From the NCBI RefSeq assembly GCF_011391645.1, contig NZ_JAABQC010000010.1, positions 1-42,943 on the forward strand: DNA of 42,943 nt. Reading direction: 5' to 3'. Origin of the DNA: Rhodoferax sp. (GTDB lineage Bacteria > Pseudomonadota > Gammaproteobacteria > Burkholderiales > Burkholderiaceae_C). Below the pieces are notes generated by a model. The model was not told where the DNA came from and searched no databases. It saw only the letters and a program-made list of their open reading frames with translations. The translations under genes were made by a program, and so were the position numbers. This document shows positions 2,065 to 16,417 of this stretch, in pieces (the first letter of the stretch is position 1; the number at the start of each line of letters is the position of its first letter).

Positions 2065-3108
2065 TCAGCGCACCAACACGGCAGCGCTGTCGCCGCGCGG
2101 GGCAATCACGCCGATCTCGTACACCGTTTCACCGGCGCTGCGCAACATGGCTGCGCAGGCCTTTGCATGGGCGTCGTCAATCACCACCACCATGCCGATG
2201 CCGTTGTTGAAGGTGCGGTTCATCTCGATGTCGTCAATGCCCGCCGTGGCCTGCAGCCAGGCAAACAACTCGGTTTGCGGCCAGCTGCCTTTGACCAGAT
2301 GGGCGGCCGTGCCGTCGGGCAGCACGCGCGGGATGTTTTCCAGCAAGCCGCCACCTGTAATGTGCGCCAGCGCCTTGATCGGGTGGGCGGCCAGCGCCGC
2401 CAGCACGTTCTTGACGTAAAGCCGGGTGGGTTCCATCAGCGCCAGCTTGAACGGTTTGCCGTCGAGGGTGGCGGGCACGGTGCCGGCACTTTCTGAGCGC
2501 TCGATGCATTTGCGCACCAGGCTGAAGCCGTTGGAATGCGCCCCGCTGGAGGCCAGGCCCAGCACCACGTCGCCGGGTTGGACCGTGGCGCCGGTCAGAA
2601 TTTTGGATTTTTCCACCGCGCCAACCGCAAAGCCGGCCAGGTCGTACTCGCCGGCCGGGTACATGCCGGGCATTTCAGCGGTTTCACCACCAATCAGCGC
2701 GCAGCCAGACAGTTCACAGCCTTTGGCAATGCCACCCACCACGGCAGCGGCGGTGTCCACATCGAGCTTGCCACAGGCAAAGTAATCGAGAAAAAAGAGC
2801 GGCTCGGCGCCTTGCACCAGCACATCATTCACGCTCATGGCGACCAGGTCGATGCCCACGGTGTCGTGCATCTGCCACTCGAACGCCAGTTTGAGCTTGG
2901 TGCCCACGCCGTCGGTGCCGCTCACCAGCACCGGTTCCTTGTACCGTTTGGGCACCTCAAACAGCGCGCCAAAGCCGCCAATGCCGGCCAGCACGCCTTC
3001 GCGCATGGTCTTTTTGGCGAGCGGTTTGATGCGTTCCACCAAGGCGTCGCCCGCGTCAATGTCAACGCCAGCGGCTTTGTAGGAAAGAGGGGTGGAGGAT
3101 TGGGTCAT
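2065..3108 (-). CDS. purM: Phosphoribosylformylglycinamidine cyclo-ligase (AIR synthetase)
   Basis: PurM closes the imidazole ring of FGAM using ATP to give aminoimidazole ribonucleotide, step five of de novo purine synthesis, in the cytosol. The 347-residue protein has the normal length and the family hallmarks: the N-terminal [17 protein letters not shown], the segment [17 protein letters not shown], the metal/ATP-binding [20 protein letters not shown], the [11 protein letters not shown] loop and the C-terminal [16 protein letters not shown]. The ATG at 3108 gives the standard MTQSS... start; a TTG seven codons upstream is less likely. It is divergent from the AI-2E permease gene across about 100 bases. 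Presence of this neighbourhood (purM next to permease-hda-pcnB-folK) is common in Burkholderiales. Confidence 0.97.
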
Positions 3109-3206
3109 GACGATGTGCAGGTGAGGCAAAAGGGTGGCTCGGGCGGGAAGCCGTAAGCCCGATAGAATTTGGCCTGATTTTAAGGGGTTGGCCTTTGGCC
3201 GTTTCT

Positions 3207-4301
3207 ATGCAATTTACTTCCACACAAAAAAGAGCTGCTGCCTGGATGGCGCTGTTGCTGGGCACCCTGACGGTGCTTTGGCTGCTGGCGCCAGTGCTGA
3301 CTCCGTTTGTGGTGGCGGCCATCTTGGCTTATGCGCTGACGCCAGTGGTCGACTGGCTCGACAACCTGGGCCGGGGTCGCATTCCAAGGTTGCTGGCGGT
3401 GGTGGTGGTGGAAGTTGTTTTCCTGCTGATGCTGCTGGCGCTGATGCTGCTGGTGGTGCCCATCCTGATCAAGCAGTTGCCGCTGTTGCGCGAGCAGGTG
3501 CCCCCGCTGTTGGACCGGTTTAACTTGTTCATCCAGCCGTTTTTGGCGCAGTTCGGCCTGCATGTGTCGTTCGACGTGGCCGGCCTCAAGGCCTTCGCCA
3601 TGGAGCACCTGAGTGCCAATTTTGAAGACTTGCTGGGCCGTTTGATGGCTTCAGCCAAGCTGGGCGGCAGTGTGGCGCTGTCGGTGATCGGCAATGCGGT
3701 GTTGATCCCGGTGGTGCTGTTTTATCTGCTGATGGAGTGGCGCCGCATCATCGGCTTGCTGCTGGTGCTGGTACCGCCCCGCCTGCGTGCAGCGGTCGAC
3801 AGCTTCACCACCGAGTCCGATGCCGTGCTGGGGCAATACCTGCGCGGCCAGATGCTGGTGATGCTGGTGCTGGCGGTTTATTACAGTGCCGGGCTGGCGC
3901 TGTTTGGCCTGGACCTTGCCTTGCCCATCGGGGTTTTTACCGGCCTGGCGGTGGCGATTCCCTACCTCGGTTTCGGGCTCGGGCTGATTTTGGCCACGCT
4001 GGCCGGTTTTCTTGAATTTTCGGCGCAGGCCGGTCAGGTCAGCGCGCTGTTGATGGTGGCCGTGGTGTATGGCCTGGGTCAGTTGATTGAGAGTTTCTTT
4101 TTGACCCCGCGCCTGGTCGGAGAGCGTATTGGCCTGCACCCGTTGGCGGTCATTTTTGCCTTGCTGGCGTTTGGCCACACGCTGGGTTTTGTCGGCGTGT
4201 TGATTGCCTTGCCGCTGAGCGCCGTGTTGCTGGTCGCCATTCGCCGGCTGCAAACAGCTTACCTGCGCAGCGCGCTTTATCAGGACTCGCCGAGCGCATG
4301 A
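3207..4301 (+). CDS. AI-2E family transporter (PerM/TqsA-like permease)
   Basis: A 364-residue inner-membrane protein of the AI-2E exporter/PerM family. Two hydrophobic hairpins near the N-terminus (roughly residues 12-45 and 58-85) are followed by an amphipathic region and four to five further helices; the C-terminal half has the family-typical segments IPYLGFGLGLILATLAG, LIESFFLTPRLVGERIGLHP and FALLAFGHTLGFVGVLIALP. The transported substrate is unknown for most members. It is the first gene of a run ending with folK; its stop overlaps the start of hda (ATGA at 4298-4301). A TTG at 3195, six bases after an AAGGGG, is an alternative start four codons upstream. Confidence 0.9.
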   Translation: MQFTSTQKRAAAWMALLLGTLTVLWLLAPVLTPFVVAAILAYALTPVVDWLDNLGRGRIPRLLAVVVVEVVFLLMLLALMLLVVPILIKQLPLLREQVPPLLDRFNLFIQPFLAQFGLHVSFDVAGLKAFAMEHLSANFEDLLGRLMASAKLGGSVALSVIGNAVLIPVVLFYLLMEWRRIIGLLLVLVPPRLRAAVDSFTTESDAVLGQYLRGQMLVMLVLAVYYSAGLALFGLDLALPIGVFTGLAVAIPYLGFGLGLILATLAGFLEFSAQAGQVSALLMVAVVYGLGQLIESFFLTPRLVGERIGLHPLAVIFALLAFGHTLGFVGVLIALPLSAVLLVAIRRLQTAYLRSALYQDSPSA

Positions 4302-4984
4302 TGCAACAACTGGTGCTGGACATGAGCCTGCCCAACGGGCCCAGCCTGGCTAACTATTGCGCTGGTACCAGCGGGGCTGCGCTGGCACATCTGAAGCTTT
4401 GGCTGGGGCGCGCGGGCAGCACGCTGCGTTCACCCGTGCCCAGCTACCTTTGGGGCGGCACCGGCTGCGGTAAAACCCATTTGCTGAAAGCCTTGCGCGC
4501 CGCGCTGCAGGACCAGGGCGACAAGGCGGGGTGGCTCGATGCCGACCTGCAGGCGCCCGCCGAGTTTGATGAAACCTGGGCCTGCGTGCTGATGGATGAC
4601 GTGCATGCCTTCAGCACGGCGCAGCAGCAGGTGGCATTCAACTGGTTTGTTCACGCGCAAACCCTGCAAATTGCGGTCTTCGCCACCGGCAGCCTGCCAC
4701 CGGCCGACCTGAAGTTGCGCGATGACTTGCGTACCCGCCTGGGCGGCGGCCACGTCTTTGCACTGCAGGCCCTGAGTGAGCCCGAGCGGCGCGCCGTGTT
4801 GCGCCAGACGGCGGATGAACGCGGTATTTTCTTGAGCGACGAGGTCATGGATTTCATGTTGACGCGCTTCAGCCGCGACCTGGGCAGCCTGATGGAACTG
4901 CTCGACCTGATGGACGGCTACGCACTGCAAACCCAGCGCGCCATCACGATTCCCCTGATCAAAGCCATGATGGACAACACATGA
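4298..4984 (+). CDS. hda: DnaA regulatory inactivator Hda
   Basis: Hda is a DnaA-related AAA+ protein that, bound to the DNA-loaded beta clamp, stimulates hydrolysis of DnaA-ATP and so prevents over-initiation of replication. The 228-residue protein starts MMQQLVLDMSLP, matching the N-terminal clamp-binding motif (QL.L.) of the family, followed by a Walker A GGTGCGKT (residues 53-60), a Walker B VLMDDVH (97-103), and the AAA+ arginine-rich segment LRDDLRTRLGGGHVFAL. It lacks the DNA-binding domain IV of DnaA, as Hda does. Start and stop are coupled by ATGA overlaps to the permease before and the phosphatase after, indicating translational coupling in one operon. Confidence 0.93.
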   Translation: MMQQLVLDMSLPNGPSLANYCAGTSGAALAHLKLWLGRAGSTLRSPVPSYLWGGTGCGKTHLLKALRAALQDQGDKAGWLDADLQAPAEFDETWACVLMDDVHAFSTAQQQVAFNWFVHAQTLQIAVFATGSLPPADLKLRDDLRTRLGGGHVFALQALSEPERRAVLRQTADERGIFLSDEVMDFMLTRFSRDLGSLMELLDLMDGYALQTQRAITIPLIKAMMDNT

Positions 4985-5652
4985 CCTGCAAATTGACTCT
5001 TTTTGACCTGGATCACACCCTGATCCCGATAGATTCTGACTACGAATGGAATGCTTTCACAACCTCGCTGGGCTGGCACAATGCGGTCGAATTCAACCGG
5101 CAAAACGACGCCTTTTATGCGCAATACCAAGCTGGCAGCCTCGACATTCACGAATATGTACGTTTTGCCACGGCTGCCTTGTGCACGCAAGGCGCGGCCA
5201 AGTCCACGGCTGCACACGCGCAGTTCATGAAAGCCGTGGTGCAGCCCGCCATCCTGCCCCAGGCCTTGAAACTGCTGCAACAGCACCAATCAGCGGGCGA
5301 CGCGGTGCTGATCGTGACGGCCACCAATGAGTTTGTCACACGTCCGATTGCCGATGCCTTTGGCGTCCCAGAACTGATTGCCGTCATGCTGGAGCGCGAC
5401 CCTGTGAGTGGCTGGTTCAGCGGCGAGATTGCTGGAACACCGTCGTTTCGCGAGGGCAAGGTGACGCGGGTGGCGCAGTGGTTGAGCCAGCGTGGCCTGA
5501 GTTGGGACTCGGTGCAGAGCACCTTTTACAGCGACTCCATGAACGACCTGCCGCTGCTGGAGAAAGTGACACACCCGGTAGCCACCAACCCCGACGACCG
5601 GCTTCGCGCGCTTGCGCTGGATCGCGGCTGGCGCATACTTGAGCTTTTTTAG
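4981..5652 (+). CDS. HAD-IB family hydrolase (phosphoserine-phosphatase-like)
   Basis: A 223-residue haloacid-dehalogenase-type phosphatase of subfamily IB. Motif I is FDLDHTL with the nucleophile Asp9 and acid/base Asp11; motif II is VTATNEF; the motif III lysine is in FREGKVTRV; motif IV is YSDSMNDLPLL. The cap between motifs I and II is all-alpha, as in phosphoserine phosphatase and the related family proteins annotated as SerB-like. The true substrate is not readable from sequence; a broad-specificity phosphomonoesterase is equally possible. It overlaps hda by ATGA and is followed 23 bases later by pcnB, a standard Burkholderiales arrangement. Confidence 0.9.
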   Translation: MTCKLTLFDLDHTLIPIDSDYEWNAFTTSLGWHNAVEFNRQNDAFYAQYQAGSLDIHEYVRFATAALCTQGAAKSTAAHAQFMKAVVQPAILPQALKLLQQHQSAGDAVLIVTATNEFVTRPIADAFGVPELIAVMLERDPVSGWFSGEIAGTPSFREGKVTRVAQWLSQRGLSWDSVQSTFYSDSMNDLPLLEKVTHPVATNPDDRLRALALDRGWRILELF

Positions 5653-5675
5653 AATAATTAAAAACACAGGCAACA

Positions 5676-7265
5676 ATGATTAAAAAATTCATCAATCGGC
5701 TTTTGGGCAAATCTGCCCCAGAAATCAAGCATCCATTCGGCAAACGCGCTGAAATCGGCCCGCAGGAACATGGCATCAACCCCAATCTGGTGGACGAGCG
5801 CGCGCTCAACGTGGTGCGCACGCTCAAACAGGCGGGTTTCGAGGCCTACATCGTTGGCGGTGCGGTGCGCGACCTGATGCTGGGCCTCGCGCCCAAGGAC
5901 TTCGATGTGGCCACCAACGCCACGCCGGAGCAGGTCAAGGGCCTGTTCCGGCGCGCCTTCATCATCGGCCGGCGCTTTCGCATCGTGCATGTGGTGTACG
6001 GGCGGGGTCGCGAGCATGAGGTGATCGAGGTGTCGACCTTCCGCGCCTATCTGGACAATGTGGCCGCCGAGCAGGTGGCGGGCAACGAGAAGACCAGCAA
6101 GAGCGAGCTGGCCGGCATGAAACACGCGGTGGACAGCAGCGGCCGGGTGCTGCGCGACAACGTCTGGGGCCCGCAGGAAGAAGACGCGGTGCGCCGCGAT
6201 TTCACCATCAACGCCATGTATTACGACCCGGAAACGCAGATCGTGGTGGACTACCACCACGGCATCAAGGACTCCAAGAACCGTGTCATCCGCATGATTG
6301 GTGACGCGCAGGCGCGCTACCGCGAAGACCCGGTGCGTATCATCCGCGCCATCCGTTTTGCCGCCAAGCTCAATGGGCTGGGTTTCAAGCTGGAGCCCAA
6401 GACGGCGACACCGCTGGTCAAGTCCAAAGCGCTGCTGCTTGAAGTGCCGCAAAGCCGGTTGTTTGACGAAATGCTCAAGTTGCTGCAAACCGGCCACGCG
6501 CTGGCTTCCATTGAGCAGCTCAAGGTGCTGGGGCTGGCGCACGGCATTTACCCGCTGCTCGATGTGGTGGTGGAGCGCGCCGAAACACCCTTTGTGCAGT
6601 CGGCCCTGCTCGACACTGACCGGCGCGTGGGCGAGGGCAAACCGGTGGCACCCAGTTTTCTGCTGGCCTGTGTGTTGTGGGCCGATGTGCGCGACGGTTG
6701 GGCCGCGCGCATGAAAAATCAGCATTCGCACCCGGCCTTGCAGGACGCCATCGAGGACGTGTTCAATGCCCGCATCGGCGACGTGTCGGGCCGCGGTAAG
6801 CTGGCCGGTGACATGCGTGAAATCTGGCTGATGCAGCCGCGCTTCGAAAAACGCGTGGGCAGCGCCCCCTTTGGCCTGGTGGAGCAACCGCGCTTTCGGG
6901 CCGCCTTTGACTTCATGCGCTTGCGCGCTGAAATTGGCGAGCTTGACGTGGTGCTGTCGGACTGGTGGGAAGCCTTCAGTCTGGCCAACGACGACCTGCG
7001 CAACGACATGGTCGATGAAGTCAAGCTGGAACAGCAGCAGCGCGTGCGGCCGCCGCGCGCCCCACGGGTGCACTCGGTGCCGGGCCGGGCGGCCAACGAA
7101 GCGGCACCGCCATCAACTGCCGACCAAGCCGCACCAGATCGGTCAGGACTGGCCACTGACTCGGTATCGGGCGATGGCTCAGACGCGCCCAGGAAACGCC
7201 GCCGGCGTCGTCGCTCGCCGGGTCGCGGCACCGGCGATGCGGCAGCGCCAGACCAGCCGGTGTGA
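5676..7265 (+). CDS. pcnB: Poly(A) polymerase I
   Basis: PcnB adds 3' poly(A) tails to RNA, marking transcripts for decay by PNPase and other exonucleases. The 529-residue protein shows the class II nucleotidyltransferase signature: the GGAVRDLMLG helix-turn (residues 61-70), the catalytic DFD at 75-77, and RRDFTINAMYYDP, followed by the tRNA-NT/PcnB RNA-binding region (QARYREDPVRIIRAIRF). The basic C-terminal tail (RKRRRRRRSPGRG) after a Pro/Ala-rich linker is typical of proteobacterial PcnB rather than CCA-adding enzymes and likely binds RNA. The stop TGA overlaps the GTG start of folK. Confidence 0.95.
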   Translation: MIKKFINRLLGKSAPEIKHPFGKRAEIGPQEHGINPNLVDERALNVVRTLKQAGFEAYIVGGAVRDLMLGLAPKDFDVATNATPEQVKGLFRRAFIIGRRFRIVHVVYGRGREHEVIEVSTFRAYLDNVAAEQVAGNEKTSKSELAGMKHAVDSSGRVLRDNVWGPQEEDAVRRDFTINAMYYDPETQIVVDYHHGIKDSKNRVIRMIGDAQARYREDPVRIIRAIRFAAKLNGLGFKLEPKTATPLVKSKALLLEVPQSRLFDEMLKLLQTGHALASIEQLKVLGLAHGIYPLLDVVVERAETPFVQSALLDTDRRVGEGKPVAPSFLLACVLWADVRDGWAARMKNQHSHPALQDAIEDVFNARIGDVSGRGKLAGDMREIWLMQPRFEKRVGSAPFGLVEQPRFRAAFDFMRLRAEIGELDVVLSDWWEAFSLANDDLRNDMVDEVKLEQQQRVRPPRAPRVHSVPGRAANEAAPPSTADQAAPDRSGLATDSVSGDGSDAPRKRRRRRRSPGRGTGDAAAPDQPV

Positions 7266-7741
7266 CAGTTCCCGATCACCCGGAGGTGGTGGCCTGGATC
7301 GCGCTGGGTGCCAACCTGGGCGACGCGCAGGCATCGGTGCTGGCAGCCATTCAGGCCATTGCGCGTTTGCCAAGCACCCGGCTCATCGCCGCGTCAAGCA
7401 CTTACCGCACAGCACCGTTTGAGGCCACCGGGCCTGATTTTGTCAATGCGGTGGTGGCTGTTTCAACCCGGTTGAACGCCCTTGCGCTGCTGCAGCATCT
7501 GCAACAACTTGAAAATGGGGCAGGGCGCCGGCGACCGCATCGCAACGCGCCGCGCACACTCGACCTGGACATCTTGTTGTACGGTGACGCCAGCATTGCC
7601 AGCCCCACGCTGCAGGTGCCTCACCCGCGCCTGTGGGAACGGGCTTTTGTGCTGGTGCCGCTGGCCGAGATTGCGCCGGACAAGGTGAGTCGCGCCCAAC
7701 TTGGCGCGGTGGCATCCCAGGGAATTGAACGGCTGACCTGA
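7262..7741 (+). CDS. folK: 2-amino-4-hydroxy-6-hydroxymethyldihydropteridine diphosphokinase
   Basis: HPPK transfers pyrophosphate from ATP to 6-hydroxymethyl-7,8-dihydropterin in folate synthesis. The 159-residue protein has the family landmarks: GANLGD near the N-terminus, SSTYRTAPF, DFVNAVV, and the catalytic ATP/Mg loop APRTLDLDILLYGD, then the C-terminal VPHPRLWERAFVLVPL. The start is GTG, positioned so that GTGA overlaps the pcnB stop by four bases; no ATG is available at a sensible position. It ends the plus-strand operon and converges on the RidA-like gene 18 bases away. Confidence 0.95.
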   Translation: MTVPDHPEVVAWIALGANLGDAQASVLAAIQAIARLPSTRLIAASSTYRTAPFEATGPDFVNAVVAVSTRLNALALLQHLQQLENGAGRRRPHRNAPRTLDLDILLYGDASIASPTLQVPHPRLWERAFVLVPLAEIAPDKVSRAQLGAVASQGIERLT

Positions 7742-7759
7742 CAGAAGTGGTCAACCGGC

Positions 7760-8215
7760 TCAGGCCAGTTCGGCAATCATCTCGATTTCAACGCAGGCCC
7801 CGAGCGGAATTTGCGCCACGCCAAAGGCGCTGCGGGCATGGGCGCCCACGGGGCCGAATATCTCGCCAAGCAACTCGCTGGCGCCGTTGGTGACCAGATG
7901 CTGCTCGGTGAAGTCGCCGGTGGAATTGACCAGCGACATCAGCTTGACAATGCGCGTCACGCGGTTCAGGTCGCCCACCGCGGCGTGCAGCGTGCCCATC
8001 AGGTCGATGGCAACCGCGCGGGCGGCGGCCTTGCCTTCTTCAGCAGTCATGTTCTTGCCAAATTGACCCACCCAGACCTTGCCATCCTTCTTGGCCAGGT
8101 GCCCGCTTAAAAACACCAGGTTACCGGTCTGGACAAATGGCACATAAGCGGCAGCGGGGGCAGCCACCGGAGGCAGGGTAATGCCGAGTTGTGAGAGTTT
8201 GGCGTAAATGCTCAT
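7760..8215 (-). CDS. RidA/YjgF family protein
   Basis: A 151-residue protein of the RidA/YER057c/UK114 superfamily. Classical RidA hydrolyses reactive enamines/imines made by PLP enzymes; other subfamilies lack that activity. The segments LVFLSGHLAKKDGKVWVGQ, the helix LMGTLHAAVGDLNRVTRIVKL, and the C-terminal HARSAFGVAQIPLGACVEIEM match the fold, with an Arg (in HARSA) and Glu (in VEIEM) at positions where the catalytic Arg and Glu normally sit. It is about 20 residues longer at the N-terminus than archetypal RidA, as in the larger YjgF-like subgroup. It follows the transglutaminase gene by 13 bases on the same strand, so it is probably the last gene of that operon; its role there is unknown. 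Confidence 0.9.
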   Translation of the reverse strand: MSIYAKLSQLGITLPPVAAPAAAYVPFVQTGNLVFLSGHLAKKDGKVWVGQFGKNMTAEEGKAAARAVAIDLMGTLHAAVGDLNRVTRIVKLMSLVNSTGDFTEQHLVTNGASELLGEIFGPVGAHARSAFGVAQIPLGACVEIEMIAELA

Positions 8216-8228
8216 GATTTTTCCTCTT

Positions 8229-9227
8229 TCAGGTTTTGTCGTAGCTTGAATTTTGACTTTGACTCTGACTCTGACTTGGCCCGAAGCCTTGACCCTGGCT
8301 CTGGCTTTGCGTTTGTCGCGCCAAGACCAGCGGCGCTGCCATCGGCTCCACGGTCACGCCCACCTTGAGCGTGTGCCTGGCGCCGCCGTGGATGACGCCA
8401 CGCATGGGCGAGACATCAGAAAAATCTCTTCCGGTGGCCAGCGTCACATAGTCTTCGCCCGGGGATGGCCAACCGGCGCGGTCGTTGGTGGGGTCCAGAT
8501 CAAGCCAGCGCTCACTCTCGGGCAGGTCAGGCAGGTACACCGCGGCCCAGGCATGCGAGGCATCACTGCCCCTGAGCTTGACCGTGCCCGGGGCAGGCAG
8601 GGTAAGCAAATAGCCGCTGACATAGCGCGCCGGCAAGCCCAGGCTGCGCAGGCACGCAATCAGAATATGGGCGAAGTCCTGGCACACTCCCTTGCGCTGC
8701 GCCAGCGCCTCCAGCGCCGGGGTATTGACCTGGGTGCTTTGGCTCTCATAGCTGAAGTCGCGGTGGATTCGGTGCATCAGGTCAATCGACGCCGCCATCA
8801 GGCCCGCGCCTGCCGTGAAACTGGGTCTGGCGTAAGCCAAAAATTCGGCGTCGCGCGGCACCATCGGCGAGACAAAAACGAATTCGTTGGCAGCATCAAA
8901 GGGGGCGCCGGCCCGATAACGAAAGTGCTCGCGCACCGCCTCCCAAGTGATGTCGCTGGTGGGCAAACGCACGGTTTGCGTGTTCACCTGGCTGGTGGCG
9001 ATCACCTGCAGCCGGGTGTGCGGGACCTGCAGCGAGAAAAAACTGCGCGTGTTGCCGAACACATCCCCGGTGGTATGCACCTGCGCCGGCTCGGGGCTAA
9101 CCTGCAAGCTGTGGCCCAGCAGGGTCTGGTTCGCGTTGTGCAGCGGCGTCAGATAAGCCATGTGCTGAGCCGTCTCAACGGCAGGCACATAGTTGTAAAG
9201 CGTCTCGTGGGTAATCTGCAACCTCAT
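8229..9227 (-). CDS. Transglutaminase family protein
   Basis: A 332-residue cytosolic protein with a bacterial transglutaminase-like N-terminal beta domain (residues 1-90) and a transglutaminase-like cysteine protease core. The catalytic triad is visible: Cys182 in GVCQDFAH, His225 in SDASHAWAAVYLP, and Asp243/Asp245 in RWLDLDPTND. It has no signal peptide. Proteins of this family co-occur with circularly permuted ATP-grasp and alpha-E proteins in predicted peptide-synthesis or modification operons, where the transglutaminase is thought to cleave or transfer an amide-linked product (established as a genomic association, not as biochemistry). Its ATG overlaps the TGA of the ATP-grasp gene by four bases. 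The C-terminus ends in a Gln-Ser/Gln-Gly tract encoded by an imperfect hexanucleotide repeat. Confidence 0.92.
   Translation of the reverse strand: MRLQITHETLYNYVPAVETAQHMAYLTPLHNANQTLLGHSLQVSPEPAQVHTTGDVFGNTRSFFSLQVPHTRLQVIATSQVNTQTVRLPTSDITWEAVREHFRYRAGAPFDAANEFVFVSPMVPRDAEFLAYARPSFTAGAGLMAASIDLMHRIHRDFSYESQSTQVNTPALEALAQRKGVCQDFAHILIACLRSLGLPARYVSGYLLTLPAPGTVKLRGSDASHAWAAVYLPDLPESERWLDLDPTNDRAGWPSPGEDYVTLATGRDFSDVSPMRGVIHGGARHTLKVGVTVEPMAAPLVLARQTQSQSQGQGFGPSQSQSQSQNSSYDKT
8249..8312 (-). repeat. Imperfect hexanucleotide repeat encoding a Ser-Gln tail
   Basis: On the plus strand the tract reads as repeated TGACTT/TGACTC units, then degenerate TGACCC/TGGCTC/TGGCTT units. Read on the minus strand it encodes two Gln-Ser runs at residues 306-325 of the transglutaminase, separated by GQGFGP. 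Such repeats can change length by slippage; a change of whole hexamers keeps the frame. Confidence 0.7.
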
Positions 9228-11872
9228 GAAGCCCCCAGGCTTTGGTTGACCAGGCCGCTGTGGGTGAAGTACGTGGTGCTGATTTCATCCGACACCACAA
9301 AACTGGCATGGCTGCACTGGTAAAGCACGTTCTTGAGCAACTCATAACGCGCCGCGCCACCGCCCGTCGACAGCACGGTGTCTGATTCTGGTGCGGGCGA
9401 GACCAAGTCGGGCGCCTTGTCGCACAACTGTGCCAGACTCCAACTGCCGGGGTGGGGGACCTTGTGCGACAGGGCGCAAAGCTGGTTGGGCTCGCTGCCG
9501 GCGAGCCGGGCCAGACGCCCCCGCAGTGTGTGGGCGATCCATGAAATCGAGCGCGGGTTGTCGCGGTCAATGACCAGCAGGTCGACCAGCGCCGTCATGT
9601 CGCGGCTTTGCTGAAACTGGGCGTGAAAGGTGATGGCGCTGTCGAACAGTTCGACCATGGCATCAAAGCCGCCATCGGTGAGCAGGCTGCCGGTGTCAAG
9701 GCCGCGCAACAAGGCCGACGACAAAAATCCCAGCCGTTCAATGTGGCGGCCGATGCTCAGCAAACGCCAGCCATCGTCACGCGTCATGCGATCGGTCTGG
9801 GCGCCCGTGATGGCGGCCATGTGGTCGCTGGTGTCCTTGAGAATCTGCAGCGCTTGAAGCGCTGAAAAATCAGCACGCTGGCGCTGTTGCGCACAGCGCG
9901 CAAACAGATCTTCTTCGCAGCGGATGATGATGCGCCAGTGCTCCTGCGACAGGCGCTCGCGCACGCTGGAGCCCACCATTTTGAGCGCGCGCAGGTAATA
10001 ACCCACGCTGGTGGCACCGGTGGTGGTGCCCAGGCCGTCGATCAGGCTGCGCTCGAACACCCGGGGCGCCTGCAAGGCCGACGGCACGCCCGGCAGCACC
10101 AGGGTGTTGGCCACTGCCATCTGGCTGAGCCAGGTCAACAAGGGCGCGGAGGATTGTTCCTCGCCATGCAGACACTCCAGCGTGAGGCGCGCCAGGCGGA
10201 TGGCGTTTTCAGCGCGCTCGGTGTAGCGACCCAGCCAAAAAAGATTTTCTGCAGCACGGCTGGTGATCATTCGCTTGCGCTGCATCAGGGACTCAGGCGT
10301 CAGGTGCGGCGCCAGCAGGGTGCTGTGATCAACCTCGCCACGGGTCATGGACCAGACGTCGGCGCTGCTGCCCCCGCGCTGCATCGACGTGATCTCTTCA
10401 CCTGCGCTGGCGACGCGGGCCAGGCCGCCGGGAAGCACGCGCCAGCCCTGGGCGCCATCTGACACCACGAACACCCGCAACATCACCGAGCGTGCCAGCA
10501 ACTTGCCGGCCTGGCCCGCGGCCACCGCGCCCGTTGCCTGCCATGTGGGCATTTGCGACAACGGGGTGTAGCCTTGCAAAGTGTATTCTTCGGCATGCCG
10601 CACGATGCGCCCGGCCCATTCATCCACCTCGCGTGGTGTGAGCCGGTTGCCCAGCACAGACTCAAAACTGCCCTGGTCGACCGAGCCCGGGTAAGTGGGT
10701 TTGATGGCGCAGTCGTTCAAGCGCGGCAGGGCTTCTTCCATGGCGCTGCGTTCACCGCACCACCAGGTGGGCAATGCCGGCAGGCTGAGTTGTTGGCCCA
10801 GCAAATGGCGTGACAGGGCGGGCAAGAAGCCGAGCAGGGCAGGCGACTCCAGAAATGCCGAGCCCGGGGCATTGGCCACCAGCACATTGCCCGCCCGGAT
10901 GGCTTGCAGCAACCCGGGCACGCCCAGCGTGGAGTCGGCACGCAGTTCAAGCGGGTCCAGATACTGGTCATCCACGCGCTTGAGCAGGCCGTGCACCGGC
11001 ACCAGCCCCTTGAGTGTTTTCAGGAACAGGCATTCGTCGCGCACCAGCAGATCACTGCCTTCCACCAGCGTGAGGCCGAGGTAGCGCGCCAGATAAGCGT
11101 GTTCGAAATAAGTTTCGTTGTAGGGGCCGGGCGTGAGCAGGGCCAGATGCGCATCAGCACCTTGGGGGCTCATGGCCTTGAGGCTGTCCATCAGGGCGCG
11201 GTAGGTGCTGGCCAGGCGCTGCACCCGCAGGCTCTGGAAGGCTCGGGGAAACTGGGCTGAAATGGCGAGACGGTTTTCCAGCAGATATCCCAAACCTGAC
11301 GGTGCCTGGCTGCGCTGGGCTTCCACCCACCAATTGCCGTCAGGTCCGCGAGCCAGATCAAAAGCTGCAATGTGCAGAAAGCGCCCGCCCACCGGCTTCA
11401 CGCCATGCATGGCGCGCAGGTAGCCCGGGTGCGCGTGCACCAGGGCAGGCGGCAAAAAGCCGTCGTGCAGCAAAGTTTGCGGCCCGTAGACATCGGCCAT
11501 CACGCGCTCCAGCAGGCGCATGCGTTGCAACACACCCGCCTCGATGCGCTGCCAGCTCTGGGGATCGACGATCAGTGGAAACAGGTCAAGCGACCAGGGG
11601 CGTTGCGGCCCGTTTTCATCGGCATAGACGTTGTAGGTGATGCCGTTGTCACGCACCTGGCGCGCCAGATTGACGGCTCGCTGGTCCATGTCGGTGACCG
11701 CGTCATTGTCCAGTGTGGAGAAAAACTGATGCCAGGCGTCTGACAGGCCGGCAGCCTTGCCGCGCAACTCGTCAAAGTGTCCGACCGTTGCCTGCGTGGC
11801 TTGAGCCAGTTCGGTCACGCTGACGGGCTTGGGTCTGGTTTCTTTTGGTTGCAAATGAAAGGCTTCGCTCAT
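9224..11872 (-). CDS. Circularly permuted ATP-grasp / alpha-E domain fusion protein
   Basis: An 882-residue cytosolic fusion. Residues about 40-500 are a circularly permuted type 2 ATP-grasp domain (former DUF404/DUF407): NGITYNVYADENG, the long AFDLARGPDGNWWVEAQR stretch, TPGPYNETYFEHAYLARYLG, and the metal/ATP segment IKPTYPGSVDQGSF followed by MLRVFVVSDGAQGWRVLPGG. Residues about 536-865 are an alpha-E domain (former DUF403), starting ITSRAAENLFWLGRYTERAE. ATP-grasp enzymes of this class are predicted amide/peptide ligases; alpha-E is an all-helical partner of unknown function. In many genomes these are two separate genes; here they are one. The ATG at 11872 was chosen because upstream codons lack family character and overlap the divergent proQ promoter region. 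The stop is coupled by ATGA to the transglutaminase. Confidence 0.92.
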   Translation of the reverse strand: MSEAFHLQPKETRPKPVSVTELAQATQATVGHFDELRGKAAGLSDAWHQFFSTLDNDAVTDMDQRAVNLARQVRDNGITYNVYADENGPQRPWSLDLFPLIVDPQSWQRIEAGVLQRMRLLERVMADVYGPQTLLHDGFLPPALVHAHPGYLRAMHGVKPVGGRFLHIAAFDLARGPDGNWWVEAQRSQAPSGLGYLLENRLAISAQFPRAFQSLRVQRLASTYRALMDSLKAMSPQGADAHLALLTPGPYNETYFEHAYLARYLGLTLVEGSDLLVRDECLFLKTLKGLVPVHGLLKRVDDQYLDPLELRADSTLGVPGLLQAIRAGNVLVANAPGSAFLESPALLGFLPALSRHLLGQQLSLPALPTWWCGERSAMEEALPRLNDCAIKPTYPGSVDQGSFESVLGNRLTPREVDEWAGRIVRHAEEYTLQGYTPLSQMPTWQATGAVAAGQAGKLLARSVMLRVFVVSDGAQGWRVLPGGLARVASAGEEITSMQRGGSSADVWSMTRGEVDHSTLLAPHLTPESLMQRKRMITSRAAENLFWLGRYTERAENAIRLARLTLECLHGEEQSSAPLLTWLSQMAVANTLVLPGVPSALQAPRVFERSLIDGLGTTTGATSVGYYLRALKMVGSSVRERLSQEHWRIIIRCEEDLFARCAQQRQRADFSALQALQILKDTSDHMAAITGAQTDRMTRDDGWRLLSIGRHIERLGFLSSALLRGLDTGSLLTDGGFDAMVELFDSAITFHAQFQQSRDMTALVDLLVIDRDNPRSISWIAHTLRGRLARLAGSEPNQLCALSHKVPHPGSWSLAQLCDKAPDLVSPAPESDTVLSTGGGAARYELLKNVLYQCSHASFVVSDEISTTYFTHSGLVNQSLGAS

Positions 11873-11940
11873 TTCTCTGAGTATGCCAGCGAAGTGGCGC
11901 TTTGGTTGACAATCACGGGTTCTTCTATTTGATCCATGCC

Positions 11941-12648
11941 ATGACCGATACCATCCAAGAACACGCCGAACCTGCCACCCAAGTACCGCAGGAGGCAGCG
12001 CCGTCTGCCGTTCCTGAAAGCCCGCAGAAGCCAACTGTGGTTGACGCGCCAGTCAGTCCTGCCAAGTCAAAAAGTCGTTTCGCCTCAGTGCAGCCTGTGC
12101 TGGAAAAACTGTTTGAGCTGTATCCGCATTTGTTTGGCGAGCGCTTCCTGCCGCTCAAGCTGGGTATTTTCCAGGAACTGCTGGCGGCCCACCCGGAGGA
12201 TTTCAAACGCGAATCGCTCAAGGCCGCCTTGGGCGTGCACACCCGCTCCACCCGCTATTTGCAAAGCGTGGCCGCGGGCCAGAAACGCCACGACTTGCAG
12301 GGCCAGCCGGTCGAAGACGTGGCACCCGAACACGTGTTTTTGTCCATCGTTGAATTGTTTCAACGCCGCCAGGCCCGCAGCACGGAAGACTTGCGGCCCA
12401 AATTGCGAAGCCAACTGCTGGCCGCGTTCGAAAAATCCGGTCTGACCCGACAAGACTACCTGGCGCGCATTGGCACTCCGACTGAAGCGGTTCAGGCGCT
12501 GCTCGACGAGGTGCTGGCCGAGGTTGAGCAGCAGCGCGCCCGGCGCACCGCATTGAAAAAGGCCTTTGAAGCCAGCGGTCAAAGCATTGAGGCGTTTGCT
12601 GACGCGCTGGGCATGCGTGTCAGCGAGGTGCAGACGGCGTTGAAATAA
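11941..12648 (+). CDS. proQ: ProQ/FinO family RNA chaperone
   Basis: A 235-residue protein with a ProQ/FinO RNA-binding domain at about residues 46-150: LEKLFELYPHLFGE, RFLPLKLGIFQEL and the helix-rich ALGVHTRSTRYLQSVAAG. Such proteins bind structured sRNAs and mRNA 3' ends. The N-terminal 45 residues are a Pro/Ala/Gln-rich flexible tail and the C-terminal part is charged and helical. The start is at ATG 11941; no Shine-Dalgarno is visible before it, while a perfect TTGACA lies at 11906-11911, only 29 bases upstream, raising the possibility of a very short or absent leader. It sits, oppositely oriented, between the ATP-grasp gene and the DUF2126 gene, splitting the peptide-ligase cluster. Confidence 0.9.
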   Translation: MTDTIQEHAEPATQVPQEAAPSAVPESPQKPTVVDAPVSPAKSKSRFASVQPVLEKLFELYPHLFGERFLPLKLGIFQELLAAHPEDFKRESLKAALGVHTRSTRYLQSVAAGQKRHDLQGQPVEDVAPEHVFLSIVELFQRRQARSTEDLRPKLRSQLLAAFEKSGLTRQDYLARIGTPTEAVQALLDEVLAEVEQQRARRTALKKAFEASGQSIEAFADALGMRVSEVQTALK

Positions 12649-12654
12649 AACGGA

Positions 12655-12689
12655 GCAGCCCCCGGGCTGCGCTGCGCTTGATCCGGGGG
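12655..12689. terminator. Possible bidirectional terminator between proQ and DUF2126 gene
   Basis: Two overlapping inverted repeats lie in the 58-base gap between convergent genes: GCAGCC/GGCTGC (12655-12660 with 12665-12670) and CCCCCGG/CCGGGGG (12659-12665 with 12683-12689). There is no T-run on either strand, so termination is only a suggestion from position and pairing. Confidence 0.35.
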
Positions 12690-12706
12690 ATGTTCAGGAG
12701 CCGGTT

Positions 12707-15700
12707 TCAGCCGCGCCGCAAATCCAACGTGAACGGAAACTCGCGGCTGGCTGGCACGTTGATGGTGGCCGGTGGCACGTTCACCTCACCTGGCGTGTGA
12801 CCGCCGGCAGTGAAGCGTGACAGGCGGCGGCTTTCGGCCTCGTTGGCGTTGACCGGCAGGCTTTGGTAACTCAAGCCGCCCGGGTGCGCCACGTGGTACT
12901 GGCAGCCGCCCAATGAGCGCTTCATCCAGGTGTCCACAATGTCAAAGGTCAGCGGCGCATGCACACCGATGCTCGGGTGCAGGCTGCTTGGCGGGTTCCA
13001 GGCTTTGTAACGCACACCGGCCACATATTCGCCTTGCACGCCAGTGGGCTGCAAAGACATGGCGCGGCCGTTGCAGGTGACCACATAGCGGCTCTCGTTC
13101 ATGCCGGTGACACGCACCTCAATGCGCTCCAGGGAGGAGTCCACATAGCGCGCGGTGCCGCCCGGGGCGCCTTCTTCACCCATCACATGCCACGGCTCCA
13201 GCGCGTTGCGCAGGGTCAGCTCGATACCTGCCGAGCAGATCGAACCAATCAGCGGAAAGCGGAATTCAACGTGCGGCGCAAACCAGCTGTCGTCAAACGC
13301 AAAACCAGCGGCGCGCATCTCGGCCATCACGTCATGGAAATCCATCTCAATGAATTTCGGCAGCATGAAACGGTCGTGCAACTCAGTTCCCCAGCGGGTG
13401 GCCGGCGCCATGTAGGGCGTCTTCCAGAAGCGGGCAATCAGCGCGCGCAGCAGCAACTGCTGCACACTGCTCATGTGCGGGTGCGGCGGCATCTCGAACG
13501 CGCGCAACTCCAGCAGGCCCAGACGGCCGGTGGCTGAGTCGGGCGAATACATCTTGTCAATCGAGATTTCGCTGCGGTGGGTGTTGCCGGTGGCGTCGAT
13601 CAGAATGTTGCGCAGGGTGCGGTCAATCAGCCACGGCGGCATCGACTGGCCGTGGATTTCGCGGTTTTTGTAGATCTGCTCGATGGCGATTTCAAGCTCG
13701 TACAACTGGTCGTTACGCGCTTCATCGACACGCGGTGCCTGGCTGGTCGGGCCGACAAACATGCCGGAAAACAGGTAGCTGAGCGACGGGTGGTTGTGCC
13801 AATACAACAGCAGGCTGGCCAGCAACTCCGGCTTGCGCAGGAACGGGCTGTCAGACGGCGTGGCACCACCCATCACAAAGTGGTTGCCACCACCGGTGCC
13901 GGTGTGGCGGCCATCGGTCATGAACTTTTCCGCCGACAGTCGCGACTCAAACGCGGCGTTGTAGAGGAACTCGGTGTTGTAAACCAGTTCTTTCCAGTTG
14001 TTGGCTGGGTGAATATTCACCTCGATCACGCCCGGATCAGGGGTCACGCTGAGCAGTTTCAGGCGCGGGTCGCGCGGCGGCGGGTAGCCTTCGATGACGA
14101 TCTGCACACCCAGCTCTTTCGCGGTGGCTTCCACAGCGGCCAGCAGGTCCAGGTAGTACTCCAAGCGCTCCAGTGGCGGCATGAAGACGTAGATGGCGCT
14201 GGATTTTTCACCCACCGCTTCGGCCTTGGGGCCGCTGGCGCGGCGCGGGTCGCGCACTTCCACACACAAAGCCGTGCGGGTGATCCAGTGGGCGGATTCC
14301 TTGCGCGCAGGGATGCGGGCAAAGTCGGTGGACTGCGGCGCGTCGACAAAGTCGGCAGGCTCAGGTTGCAAGGTACTTTGCGCGTGGCTGGCGGTGCTGG
14401 TGTGGCTGGCGAAGGCCGTGGGGTTTTGCATCAGCCGTGTGGCTTCTGTCGGTGGCAGGGAACCTGCCAAAAACGGCAGGGTCGATGACCCGGTGGCAGT
14501 GCTTGCTGCCGTAACCGCAGCCGCAGCGCGGCGCGCAGCACCCAGTGCCAGGCCAGCCATGCCGGGGGCGTGGCTGGTGGTGGCGGCGTGTCCGGGCGCC
14601 GTCTGGCCGGGCGCGTAACGGGCTGCCAGCTCGGCATACACGGGCAGGTCGCCACGCAGGGTCGAAGGATCCTGTTCGATCATGTAGGGGAAATCTGCCT
14701 CGCTGACCCACGGCAGTGAATCCAGCGGCAGGCGCAGTCCCATGGGTGAGTCGCCGGGCATCAGGTACAGGCGTTCGTCGCGCAGGAACCAGGGGCCGGT
14801 CGTCCAGGCCGCGCCATAGGTGTCGTCATAGCCCGCCACCTTGACCGGCAGCACATAACCCACGGGCGTGTCGAGTTTTTGCGTGAAAACCCGGCACAGG
14901 CGGGCGCGCTCCATTTCGTCGTCGAGCTTGGAGTTGAAGGGGTCGACGTTGACCGGCAGACGGCGTTCGCGCCACAGGTAATACCAGCTGTCTTCAAACG
15001 CGGTTTGCACGTGTTTGTCGGTGATGCCCAATTTACTCGCCAGCACGCTGGTAAAGCGCTGCGCGTCTTCGCTGGTGTAGTGGCTGGTCACACGTTCGTC
15101 GGCAAACAGCGCCGGGTCGGCCCACACCGGTTGGCCGTCGGCGCGCCAATAAATGTTCAGCGCCCAACGGGGAAGCTGCTCGCCGGGGTACCACTTGCCC
15201 TGGCCGTAGTGCAAAAAGCCACCTTCGCCATACTCTTTGCGCAATTTGTGCACCAATTCGGTGGCAAAGCCGCGTTTTGTCGGGCCAAGTGCGTCGGTGT
15301 TCCACTCTGGTGCGTCACGGTCGCTGACCGCCACAAAAGTGGGCTCGCCGCCCATGGTGAGGCGCACGTCGCTCTTCTGCAGGTCGTCATCGACCGCGTC
15401 ACCCAGGGCCATGATGTCGGCCCATTGTTCTTCGGTGTACGGCTTGGTGACGCGGGGCGACTCGTAAATGCGGGTCACCTGCATGTGGTGGGCAAACTCC
15501 ACTTCAGACTCATCGACACCGCCCTCAATGGGTGCAGCGCCTGATGGCTGCGGTGTGCAGGCCAACGGAATGTGGCCTTCGCCGGCCAGCAGGCCGGAGG
15601 TGGCATCCAGGCCGACCCAGCCGGCGCCGGGCAGATACACCTCACACCAGGCGTGCAGGTCGGTGAAGTCGACCTCGGTGCCGCTTGGGCCGTCAAGCGA

Positions 15701-16339
15701 CTTGACATCAGGTTTCAACTGAATCAGGTAGCCCGACACAAAACGCGCGGCCAGCCCGCAGTTGCGCAGTAGTTGCACCATCAACCAGGCCGAGTCGCGG
15801 CAGGAGCCGGAGCCCAGCGTCAGCGTTTCCTCGGGTGTTTGCACGCCAGGTTCCATGCGGATGGTGTACTTGATGGCTTGGTGCACCGAGGTGTTCAAGT
15901 CCACCAGAAAGATCACGCTGCGGCGCTTGGCGTAATCAATTTTGTCCAGGTAGGCCTGCACCAGCGGTGTCACCGGGTCAGGCATGAGGTACGGGGCGAG
16001 TTCCTGCTTCAGGTCGGGCTGGTAGCTGAAGGGAAACTCTTCCGCCTCAGGCTCCAGAAAAAAGTCAAACGGGTTGTAAACCGCCATGTCCAAGACCACA
16101 TCGACCGTGACCTTGAACTCTTTGGTCTTGTCCGGAAACACCAGGCGCGCCTGGTAGTTGGCAAACGGGTCCTGTTGCCAGTTGATGAAATGGCCCTCGG
16201 GCTCCACTTTGAGCGAATAGGAAATGATTTTGCTGCGACAGTGGGGTGCCGGGCGCAAACGCACCACTTGCGGACCAAGGTTGACCAGACGGTCATAACT
16301 GTAGTGGGTGATGTGATTCAGTGCAGCATGAATGGACAT
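12707..16339 (-). CDS. Transglutaminase-DUF2126 giant fusion protein
   Basis: A 1210-residue cytosolic protein. Residues 1-100 are the transglutaminase N-terminal beta domain (THYSYDRLVNLGPQVVRLRP); residues about 140-260 are the transglutaminase core with Cys180 (GSGSCRDSAWL), His229 (DLHAWCEVY) and Asp245 (GWVGLDATSG). The remainder is the large DUF2126 region, including LTMGGEPTFVAV, FLHYGQGKWYPGEQLPRWAL, the GGGNHFVMGG loop and the helical SSVQQLLLRALIARFW. DUF2126 has been predicted to be related to peptide-ligating enzymes of the glutamine-synthetase type (established prediction; no activity proven). An Ala/Ser/Thr-rich stretch of about 110 residues (roughly 575-685) interrupts DUF2126. 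It belongs functionally with the ATP-grasp/alpha-E and transglutaminase genes but is separated from them by proQ. Confidence 0.9.
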   Translation of the reverse strand: MSIHAALNHITHYSYDRLVNLGPQVVRLRPAPHCRSKIISYSLKVEPEGHFINWQQDPFANYQARLVFPDKTKEFKVTVDVVLDMAVYNPFDFFLEPEAEEFPFSYQPDLKQELAPYLMPDPVTPLVQAYLDKIDYAKRRSVIFLVDLNTSVHQAIKYTIRMEPGVQTPEETLTLGSGSCRDSAWLMVQLLRNCGLAARFVSGYLIQLKPDVKSLDGPSGTEVDFTDLHAWCEVYLPGAGWVGLDATSGLLAGEGHIPLACTPQPSGAAPIEGGVDESEVEFAHHMQVTRIYESPRVTKPYTEEQWADIMALGDAVDDDLQKSDVRLTMGGEPTFVAVSDRDAPEWNTDALGPTKRGFATELVHKLRKEYGEGGFLHYGQGKWYPGEQLPRWALNIYWRADGQPVWADPALFADERVTSHYTSEDAQRFTSVLASKLGITDKHVQTAFEDSWYYLWRERRLPVNVDPFNSKLDDEMERARLCRVFTQKLDTPVGYVLPVKVAGYDDTYGAAWTTGPWFLRDERLYLMPGDSPMGLRLPLDSLPWVSEADFPYMIEQDPSTLRGDLPVYAELAARYAPGQTAPGHAATTSHAPGMAGLALGAARRAAAAVTAASTATGSSTLPFLAGSLPPTEATRLMQNPTAFASHTSTASHAQSTLQPEPADFVDAPQSTDFARIPARKESAHWITRTALCVEVRDPRRASGPKAEAVGEKSSAIYVFMPPLERLEYYLDLLAAVEATAKELGVQIVIEGYPPPRDPRLKLLSVTPDPGVIEVNIHPANNWKELVYNTEFLYNAAFESRLSAEKFMTDGRHTGTGGGNHFVMGGATPSDSPFLRKPELLASLLLYWHNHPSLSYLFSGMFVGPTSQAPRVDEARNDQLYELEIAIEQIYKNREIHGQSMPPWLIDRTLRNILIDATGNTHRSEISIDKMYSPDSATGRLGLLELRAFEMPPHPHMSSVQQLLLRALIARFWKTPYMAPATRWGTELHDRFMLPKFIEMDFHDVMAEMRAAGFAFDDSWFAPHVEFRFPLIGSICSAGIELTLRNALEPWHVMGEEGAPGGTARYVDSSLERIEVRVTGMNESRYVVTCNGRAMSLQPTGVQGEYVAGVRYKAWNPPSSLHPSIGVHAPLTFDIVDTWMKRSLGGCQYHVAHPGGLSYQSLPVNANEAESRRLSRFTAGGHTPGEVNVPPATINVPASREFPFTLDLRRG

Positions 16340-16383: not shown

Positions 16384-16397
16384 TTGCTAACTAGCAA
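16384..16397. promoter_or_regulatory. Palindrome TTGCTA-AC-TAGCAA (candidate operator)
   Basis: A perfect 6-2-6 inverted repeat in the 142-base divergent region between the DUF2126 gene and the esterase gene, about 45 bases upstream of the DUF2126 start. Spacing and symmetry fit a dimeric TetR- or GntR-type regulator. No regulator gene is adjacent. Confidence 0.35.
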
Positions 16398-16417
16398 TGT
16401 TGGTGCCAGCAAGGTCA

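Follow-up and report, generated by a model that had tools for sequence, protein, structure and literature searches.

An amidoligase-type gene module in Rhodoferax with a conserved sigma-54-type promoter, a degenerate ATP-grasp site and a RidA-like neighbour

What chemistry is carried out by a bacterial gene module that combines an ATP-grasp protein, an alpha-E domain and transglutaminase-like proteins, and does a RidA-like gene at its end take part in it? The question is raised by a contig of 42,943 nucleotides from Rhodoferax sp. (NZ_JAABQC010000010.1, assembly GCF_011391645.1), analysed at its full length and called the window here. The locus encodes a circularly permuted (CP) ATP-grasp protein fused to alpha-E, a transglutaminase-like protein (TG), a large protein that joins a transglutaminase-like domain to DUF2126 (TG-DUF2126), and the RidA-like protein. 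We tentatively read it as a module under sigma-54 control whose proteins form and break a glutamyl-type amide, probably when nitrogen is limiting, a reading in which we place slightly more doubt than confidence. Its observed basis is the gene content, the TG triads, the loss of two residues from the fused ATP-grasp, a conserved sigma-54-type site, and the retention of RidA in genomes without TG.

The presence of a fused CP_ATPgrasp and Alpha-E protein places the locus in the CP ATP-grasp/alpha-E/TG/DUF2126 amidoligase family, and all module domain matches in a profile search of the window proteins lie above curated cut-offs. Such systems are said to have been predicted by Iyer et al. in 2009 (Mol Biosyst 5:1636). 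This kind of locus is already known; the conserved sigma-54-type promoter and the degenerate ATP-grasp site are results of the present analysis, and neither was met for these systems in literature searches of open-licence PMC papers. The window locus shares with the systems the set of TG-DUF2126, fused ATP-grasp-alpha-E and TG, and differs in the ProQ gene that interrupts this set and in the Rid gene after TG. Among 150 genomes of the taxonomic family (TG counted at E<=1e-40), 83 have TG and DUF2126 on a single contig, always on the same strand and never more than 17.0 kb from each other; 8 further genomes have them on different contigs. The TG triad (Table 1) is kept at 95% or more in 80 aligned rows. 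In 70 rows of TG-DUF2126 the triad, along with a great many other residues, is kept at 97% or more. When the predicted structure of DUF2126 was searched with Foldseek, the 42 best PDB chains were all of glutamine-synthetase type. The kinship with proposed amide or peptide synthesis or modification systems, put forward in the initial annotation, is borne out by these shared domains, by the invariant TG triads, and by a DUF2126 domain modelled as glutamine-synthetase-like at moderate confidence.

A sigma-54-type site was found upstream of TG-DUF2126 in 20 of the 22 family loci with a placeable start, against 1.8% of random windows. The site was scored as at least 10 of 12 positions with a GG/GC core, and the controls were random windows of 250 bases. 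The 80 relative loci in the family are the best RidA matches there, and hence a biased sample; the class sample consists of 80 alpha-E regions from class genomes outside the order, with matches on six contigs left out and some regions cut by contig ends. Elsewhere the site precedes TG-DUF2126 in 5 of 15 cases in the order (random 1.9%) and 7 of 34 in the class (random 0.85%). A scan of the whole window for such sites gave 27 matches where shuffled sequence gave a mean of 40, so that a lone match means little, and the evidence lies in conservation.

Other genes of these systems were scanned in the same way. The site was found before TG in 0 of 52 family, 1 of 22 order and 0 of 16 class cases, before alpha-E in 0 of 7, 0 of 12 and 0 of 76, and before Anbu, a proteasome-family protease, in 1 of 8 and, in the class, 1 of 45. 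The split ATP-grasp gene, first gene of a sister module in which ATP-grasp and alpha-E are separate, carries it in 1 of 8 family, 5 of 9 order and 17 of 47 class cases. Fused genes have the site in 4 of 44 family loci and in 0 of 17 and 0 of 13 elsewhere. The four are L105, L111 and L123 (fused-gene matches starting at 6280, 6283 and 6332), where it lies 59-66 bp upstream, and L104, where it lies at 219; the L105 fused gene is 2.4 kb away from TG-DUF2126.

The second result concerns the fused protein itself. Its model (pLDDT 87) shows an ATP-grasp resembling 3n6x and glutathione synthetase, plus a helical part. The CP ATP-grasp 3n6x, from Methylobacillus flagellatus, has the same fold and 29% identity over 485 alignment columns; it has E-D-N where the fused rows mostly have [S/G/A]-[Q/D]-R. 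When 86 fused rows (the window gene counted twice) were aligned with 96 split rows, E174-D175-N176 was invariant in 96 of 96 split rows, and A-Q-R (A239-Q240-R241 in 936-aa numbering) stands in its place in the window protein. Among the fused rows, the E174 column holds S in 42, G in 22, A in 17, D in 3 and T in 2, with E in none; the D175 column holds Q in 53, D in 30 and other residues in 3; the N176 column holds R in 84, L in 1 and H in 1, with N in none. An intact ATP-grasp active site was thus seen in 0 of 86 fused rows. The degenerate site marks the fused subfamily as a whole, rather than excluding the window locus from the system.

The initial annotation had proposed looking for ATP-dependent ligation of amino acids by the fusion, and expected its functional idea to fail if the site residues were lost on alignment; the loss of both E and N in every fused row tells against the fusion as a ligase. 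The fused protein could still ligate amino acids with rearranged ligands: the fold is retained (TM 0.88 to 3n6x by target length), and the residues that correspond to split D157, K381, R443, D481 and W483 (D226, K445, R520, D559 and W561 in 936-aa numbering) are kept in 82, 77, 85, 86 and 86 of the 86 fused rows. We give this possibility little credence, since E and N are gone throughout, split D441 and N472 are each kept in 0 rows, K480 in 30, and glycines 387 and 390 in 2 each, and since two alignments, one to 3n6x with phmmer and one to the split family with hhalign, run through the E-D-N stretch free of gaps. Judged from the alignment, the fused ATP-grasp probably does not work as a normal ligase. 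Its loss of E and N weakens the fusion as a ligase and leaves amide synthesis through DUF2126 untouched; if ligation occurs, the glutamine-synthetase-like DUF2126 is more likely to carry it out.

Published expression data on relatives, taken here from excerpts of the papers, bear on the conditions of use. In Burkholderia cenocepacia, I35_5080-5083 encode DUF404/407, DUF403, TG and a large TG protein; in an ntrC mutant they are down by log2 8.2, 9.4, 9.4 and 6.0, and the authors list them with the common sigma-54 and NtrC targets (PMC5491218). In Pseudomonas putida, PP_2686-2688 rise 11- to 15-fold under nitrogen limitation in the wild type (PMC7801951), and PP2685-2687 go up 7- to 11-fold in chemostats limited for nitrogen (PMC3325844). 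Marine metagenomes show an association between urea domains and these module domains (PMC3597751). The papers on relatives support nitrogen control and, in Burkholderia, control by NtrC.

In the proposed mechanism, TG-DUF2126 would act as ligase and amidase in one: the glutamine-synthetase-like DUF2126 domain would form an amide at the expense of ATP, and the cysteine transglutaminase-like domain would cleave or transfer it. The separate TG would be a second amidase or transferase. The fused ATP-grasp/alpha-E, with fold kept and E-x-N lost, may more plausibly serve as a scaffold, a carrier or an altered enzyme than as a normal ligase, and RidA would be a housekeeping imine deaminase brought along by its neighbourhood. 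A wider form of the proposal holds that the fused proteins are a pseudo-ligase subfamily turned scaffold or carrier for the glutamine-synthetase-like TG-DUF2126, and that across GTDB Gammaproteobacteria, a group that takes in the beta-proteobacteria, the system answers nitrogen starvation under sigma-54 control by storing or salvaging nitrogen in the form of a glutamyl amide; this we consider somewhat unlikely.

Several observations weigh against the proposal of a sigma-54-controlled amide module. The 22 family sites cannot be counted as independent, since six loci of Limnohabitans type have one common sequence, and in the order and class a minority of TG-DUF2126 genes has the site. The window's unit of fused gene, TG and RidA, cut off by ProQ, has no sigma-54-type site, and palindromes of NtrC type (at least 9 of 12 positions) occur upstream of TG-DUF2126 in 3 of 22 cases, below the 29% control rate. 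The DUF2126 model has a pLDDT of 69, and its best Foldseek E-value is 2.4e-3, none falling below 0.001. We take E-x-N to be magnesium-binding, as in glutathione synthetase; a comparison of the split ATP-grasp family with E. coli Gss by hhalign, made to place the metal ligands, was non-significant (E 0.38). The P. putida data cut both ways: in PMC7801951, as excerpted, PP_2686-2688 are up 14- to 20-fold in the rpoN mutant too, as are urt genes (7- to 17-fold), which speaks against sigma-54 dependence of PP_2686-2688 in that species, and the NtrB/NtrC entry in the table of the same paper is the authors' putative assignment.

The RidA-like protein is the only PF01042 or PF14588 match found in its genome. 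Its nearest solved relatives, among the four found, are 3d01 (uncharacterised), then PA0814 and ACIAD3089, and it keeps, within HARSA, the arginine equivalent to Arg105 of E. coli RidA. According to excerpts of PMC5619798, the Rid1 proteins PA0814 and ACIAD3089 are imine deaminases, and an Arg105 equivalent marks deaminases. The likeness of the window protein to these two is one of nearest relatives with a shared arginine, as distinct from a tree-based subfamily, and its gene context differs from theirs.

The initial annotation suggested that the RidA-like gene points to a reactive imine or enamine intermediate or is just a detoxifier; as a part of the pathway, it would clear such a compound as it arises in amide synthesis. 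Among the 99 family genomes that have RidA and TG, the two are direct neighbours on the same strand in 45, as they are in 51 of the 80 relative loci; the Arg105 equivalent is retained; and in the order sample PF14588 is found more often where alpha-E is present (34 of 63 vs 8 of 57, p=4e-6) and where the fused module is present (15 of 21 vs 27 of 99, p=2e-4), both values being uncorrected for kinship or genome size. In P. putida, PP_2689, annotated as an endoribonuclease and next in locus number, is up 1.7- to 2.5-fold in nitrogen-limited chemostats in excerpts of PMC3325844. The same gene, next in number to the P. putida ATP-grasp/alpha-E/TG genes, changes in excerpts of PMC8125075 too, and is possibly an independent Rid neighbour.

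The distribution of RidA across genomes points the other way. Among the 150 family genomes, RidA occurs in 147 (one weak), TG in 100 and DUF2126 in 95. RidA is present in 99 of 100 genomes with TG and in 47 of 50 without (48 including the weak match), a difference with p 0.1-0.26; 3 of those 47 have DUF2126. TG without RidA occurs in a single genome (G229), and one other (G159) has neither. Many RidA-TG pairs in the 99 genomes are not adjacent: pairs no more than 20 kb apart number 25 with the genes on opposite strands and 2 with both on the same strand, while in 21 genomes the genes are on separate contigs and in 6 they are far from each other. The remainder of the 80 relative loci comprises 7 with RidA divergent from comEC and a split ATP-grasp/alpha-E pair, 17 without any cluster gene in at least 5 kb upstream and 1 more with less upstream sequence, 1 with TG elsewhere, and 3 too short to tell; loci of Rhodoferax antarcticus (L121) and of a R. 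ferrireducens metagenome-assembled genome (MAG; L139) have RidA without a cluster gene. Outside the order, a Rid profile able to detect E. coli RidA (at 1.6e-6) had no match in any of the 80 class alpha-E regions; its one match in the order sample of 20 regions (19 genomes) lies in the second stretch of one contig that was included because a Rid gene had already been seen there. None of the 80 family loci has a sigma-54-type site before RidA, and neither an oxidase nor a pyridoxal phosphate (PLP) enzyme was seen among the module genes. We therefore regard a functional part for RidA in the pathway as distinctly unlikely.

The adjacency itself may have a history. In Ideonella (L128), RidA, comEC, the split pair, TG-DUF2126 and the fused gene share one neighbourhood, which suggests that the RidA-TG adjacency grew from an old neighbourhood. 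A RidA DNA tree built from 81 rows by a quick method has weak resolution, and cluster-adjacent and cluster-free rows interleave in it; it has 11 changes each, of which at least 4 and 6 are forced by starred branches, with shuffled means of 21.3 and 16.3. Such interleaving fits repeated loss of the cluster with RidA staying behind, and it also fits adjacency inherited in clades. The initial annotation had stated that its functional idea would fail if RidA is found in homologous clusters only by chance, and comparison across relatives largely leads there: membership in the pathway is opposed by retention without TG, by the class regions without Rid genes and by the protein's being the only Rid found in the genome, although adjacency, in 45 of 99 genomes, is common in the family. 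From its sequence and distribution, RidA is more likely a housekeeping imine deaminase that is there through lineage history than a pathway member.

Comparative genomics had linked such sets to Anbu, and the initial annotation described this one as lacking it. A proteasome-family search found no Anbu gene in the window, as described; in the genome the sole proteasome-family matches are on C116 and C19. The C116 match is HslV, judged by the neighbouring HslU in a reading of translations, and the C19 match is Anbu (E 6e-90 to designed Anbu, 1.5e-81 to natural Anbu). Absence of Anbu at the genome level is ruled out by this gene, and its absence at the locus is a matter of place, because the genome encodes it on another contig.

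Elsewhere, 45 of the 80 alpha-E regions of the class sample contain Anbu. Where the fused module is present, Anbu accompanies it in 2 of 16 class regions vs 8 of 19 order regions; the notion that Anbu is tied to the split pair and not to the fused module held in the class and failed in the order. In the order regions L262, L268 and L275, Anbu and the fused module's TG are direct neighbours, which was not seen in the family loci. A fused module without adjacent Anbu is common, but not the rule everywhere. Compared with the Anbu operon of ATP-grasp, alpha-E, TG and Anbu (excerpts of PMC6376114 and PMC5666114), the window locus has the ATP-grasp, alpha-E and TG families in common; it differs in that ATP-grasp and alpha-E are fused, not separate, and in that Anbu is absent from the locus.

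The likeness raises the possibility of protein tagging or degradation, as proposed for Anbu operons: the module would add amino acids to proteins, and Anbu, encoded elsewhere, would remove or degrade them. This hypothesis is published (PMC6376114, as excerpted), the window's genome encodes both Anbu and a split ATP-grasp/alpha-E pair, and the class and order counts above, including the three regions with Anbu beside TG, are in its favour. We judge it unlikely, given the 2 of 16 class fused-module regions with Anbu, the position of Anbu on another contig in the window's genome, and, in the excerpts of PMC6376114, a report of neither Anbu peptidase activity nor a specific complex with operon proteins.

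The features of the locus are listed in Table 1. Open reading frames and the domain search match the initial annotation in the places of the four minus-strand genes, including the ATP-grasp/alpha-E fusion and the 1210-residue TG-DUF2126; the ATGA overlap that couples the fused gene to TG lies at 9227-9224, and the gap of 13 bases before RidA at 8216-8228. The description of four linked genes stands as to content and strand. It missed a plus-strand ProQ/FinO gene, divergent from the fused gene and convergent with TG-DUF2126, which splits the set in two and is no member of the amidoligase module. Given this intervening gene and a terminator-like stem after TG-DUF2126, the four genes are probably transcribed in two units, one holding only TG-DUF2126 and the other the fused ATP-grasp/alpha-E gene, TG and RidA; the same two features led us to reject a single four-gene operon. 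Terminator-like stems number 20 in the whole stretch vs 10.2 in shuffles. The fused frame is listed from TTG 12034, and its start is probably the ATG at 11872, giving 882 aa; the ProQ/FinO frame is listed from TTG 11902 to the same stop, and its start is probably the ATG at 11941. The nearest relative, L165 (a Rhodoferax MAG), has the identical arrangement including ProQ, with 80-91% protein identity over the five genes. ProQ is at the corresponding place in 8 of the 80 relative loci, whose records are Rhodoferax, Comamonadaceae or beta-proteobacteria.

Table 1. Positions of the module genes, the intervening gene and the signals in the window.
Feature	Position	Strand	Remark
RidA-like gene, PF14588	7760-8215	-	last gene of its own unit, convergent with folK (HPPK)
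Transglutaminase-like (TG), PF08379+PF01841	8229-9227	-	triad C182/H225/D245
CP_ATPgrasp_2 (PF14403, 459 bits) fused to Alpha-E (PF04168, 174 bits)	9224-11872	-	
ProQ/FinO gene, PF04352	11941-12648	+	between fused gene and TG-DUF2126
Terminator-like stem-loop	12670-12655	-	directly after TG-DUF2126 stop; pattern match only
TG-DUF2126, 1210 aa, PF09899 1314 bits	12707-16339	-	TG triad C180/H229/D245; predicted glutamine-synthetase-like amidoligase
Sigma-54-type -24/-12 site TGGCACCAACATTGCT (11/12)	16393-16408	-	53 bp before TG-DUF2126 ATG

The draft genome (2.74 Mb, 93% complete) holds further genes of these kinds. The split ATP-grasp and alpha-E pair lies on C126 beside comEC, the latter identified by reading of translations. 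Near them, at 2375-8436 of the C126 region L007, the same kind of reading gave MoxR-like and DUF58-like proteins, a membrane transglutaminase (TgpA-like) and a lytic transglycosylase. A second, standalone DUF2126-like frame of 716 aa lies at C160 8145-10148; frames of this kind, of 704-751 aa, occur in only three other genomes of the 150 (G239, G169 and G182).

For work on these systems, the adjacency of RidA is a warning not to take a neighbour for pathway chemistry. The lost ATP-grasp residues make TG-DUF2126, and not the fused protein, the one to assay first, and the sigma-54-type promoter, together with the published NtrC dependence in a relative, makes nitrogen starvation the condition to look under. 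If the reading of the fused proteins as pseudo-ligases in a nitrogen-starvation response is true, it would provide the first testable physiological role for an orphan family.

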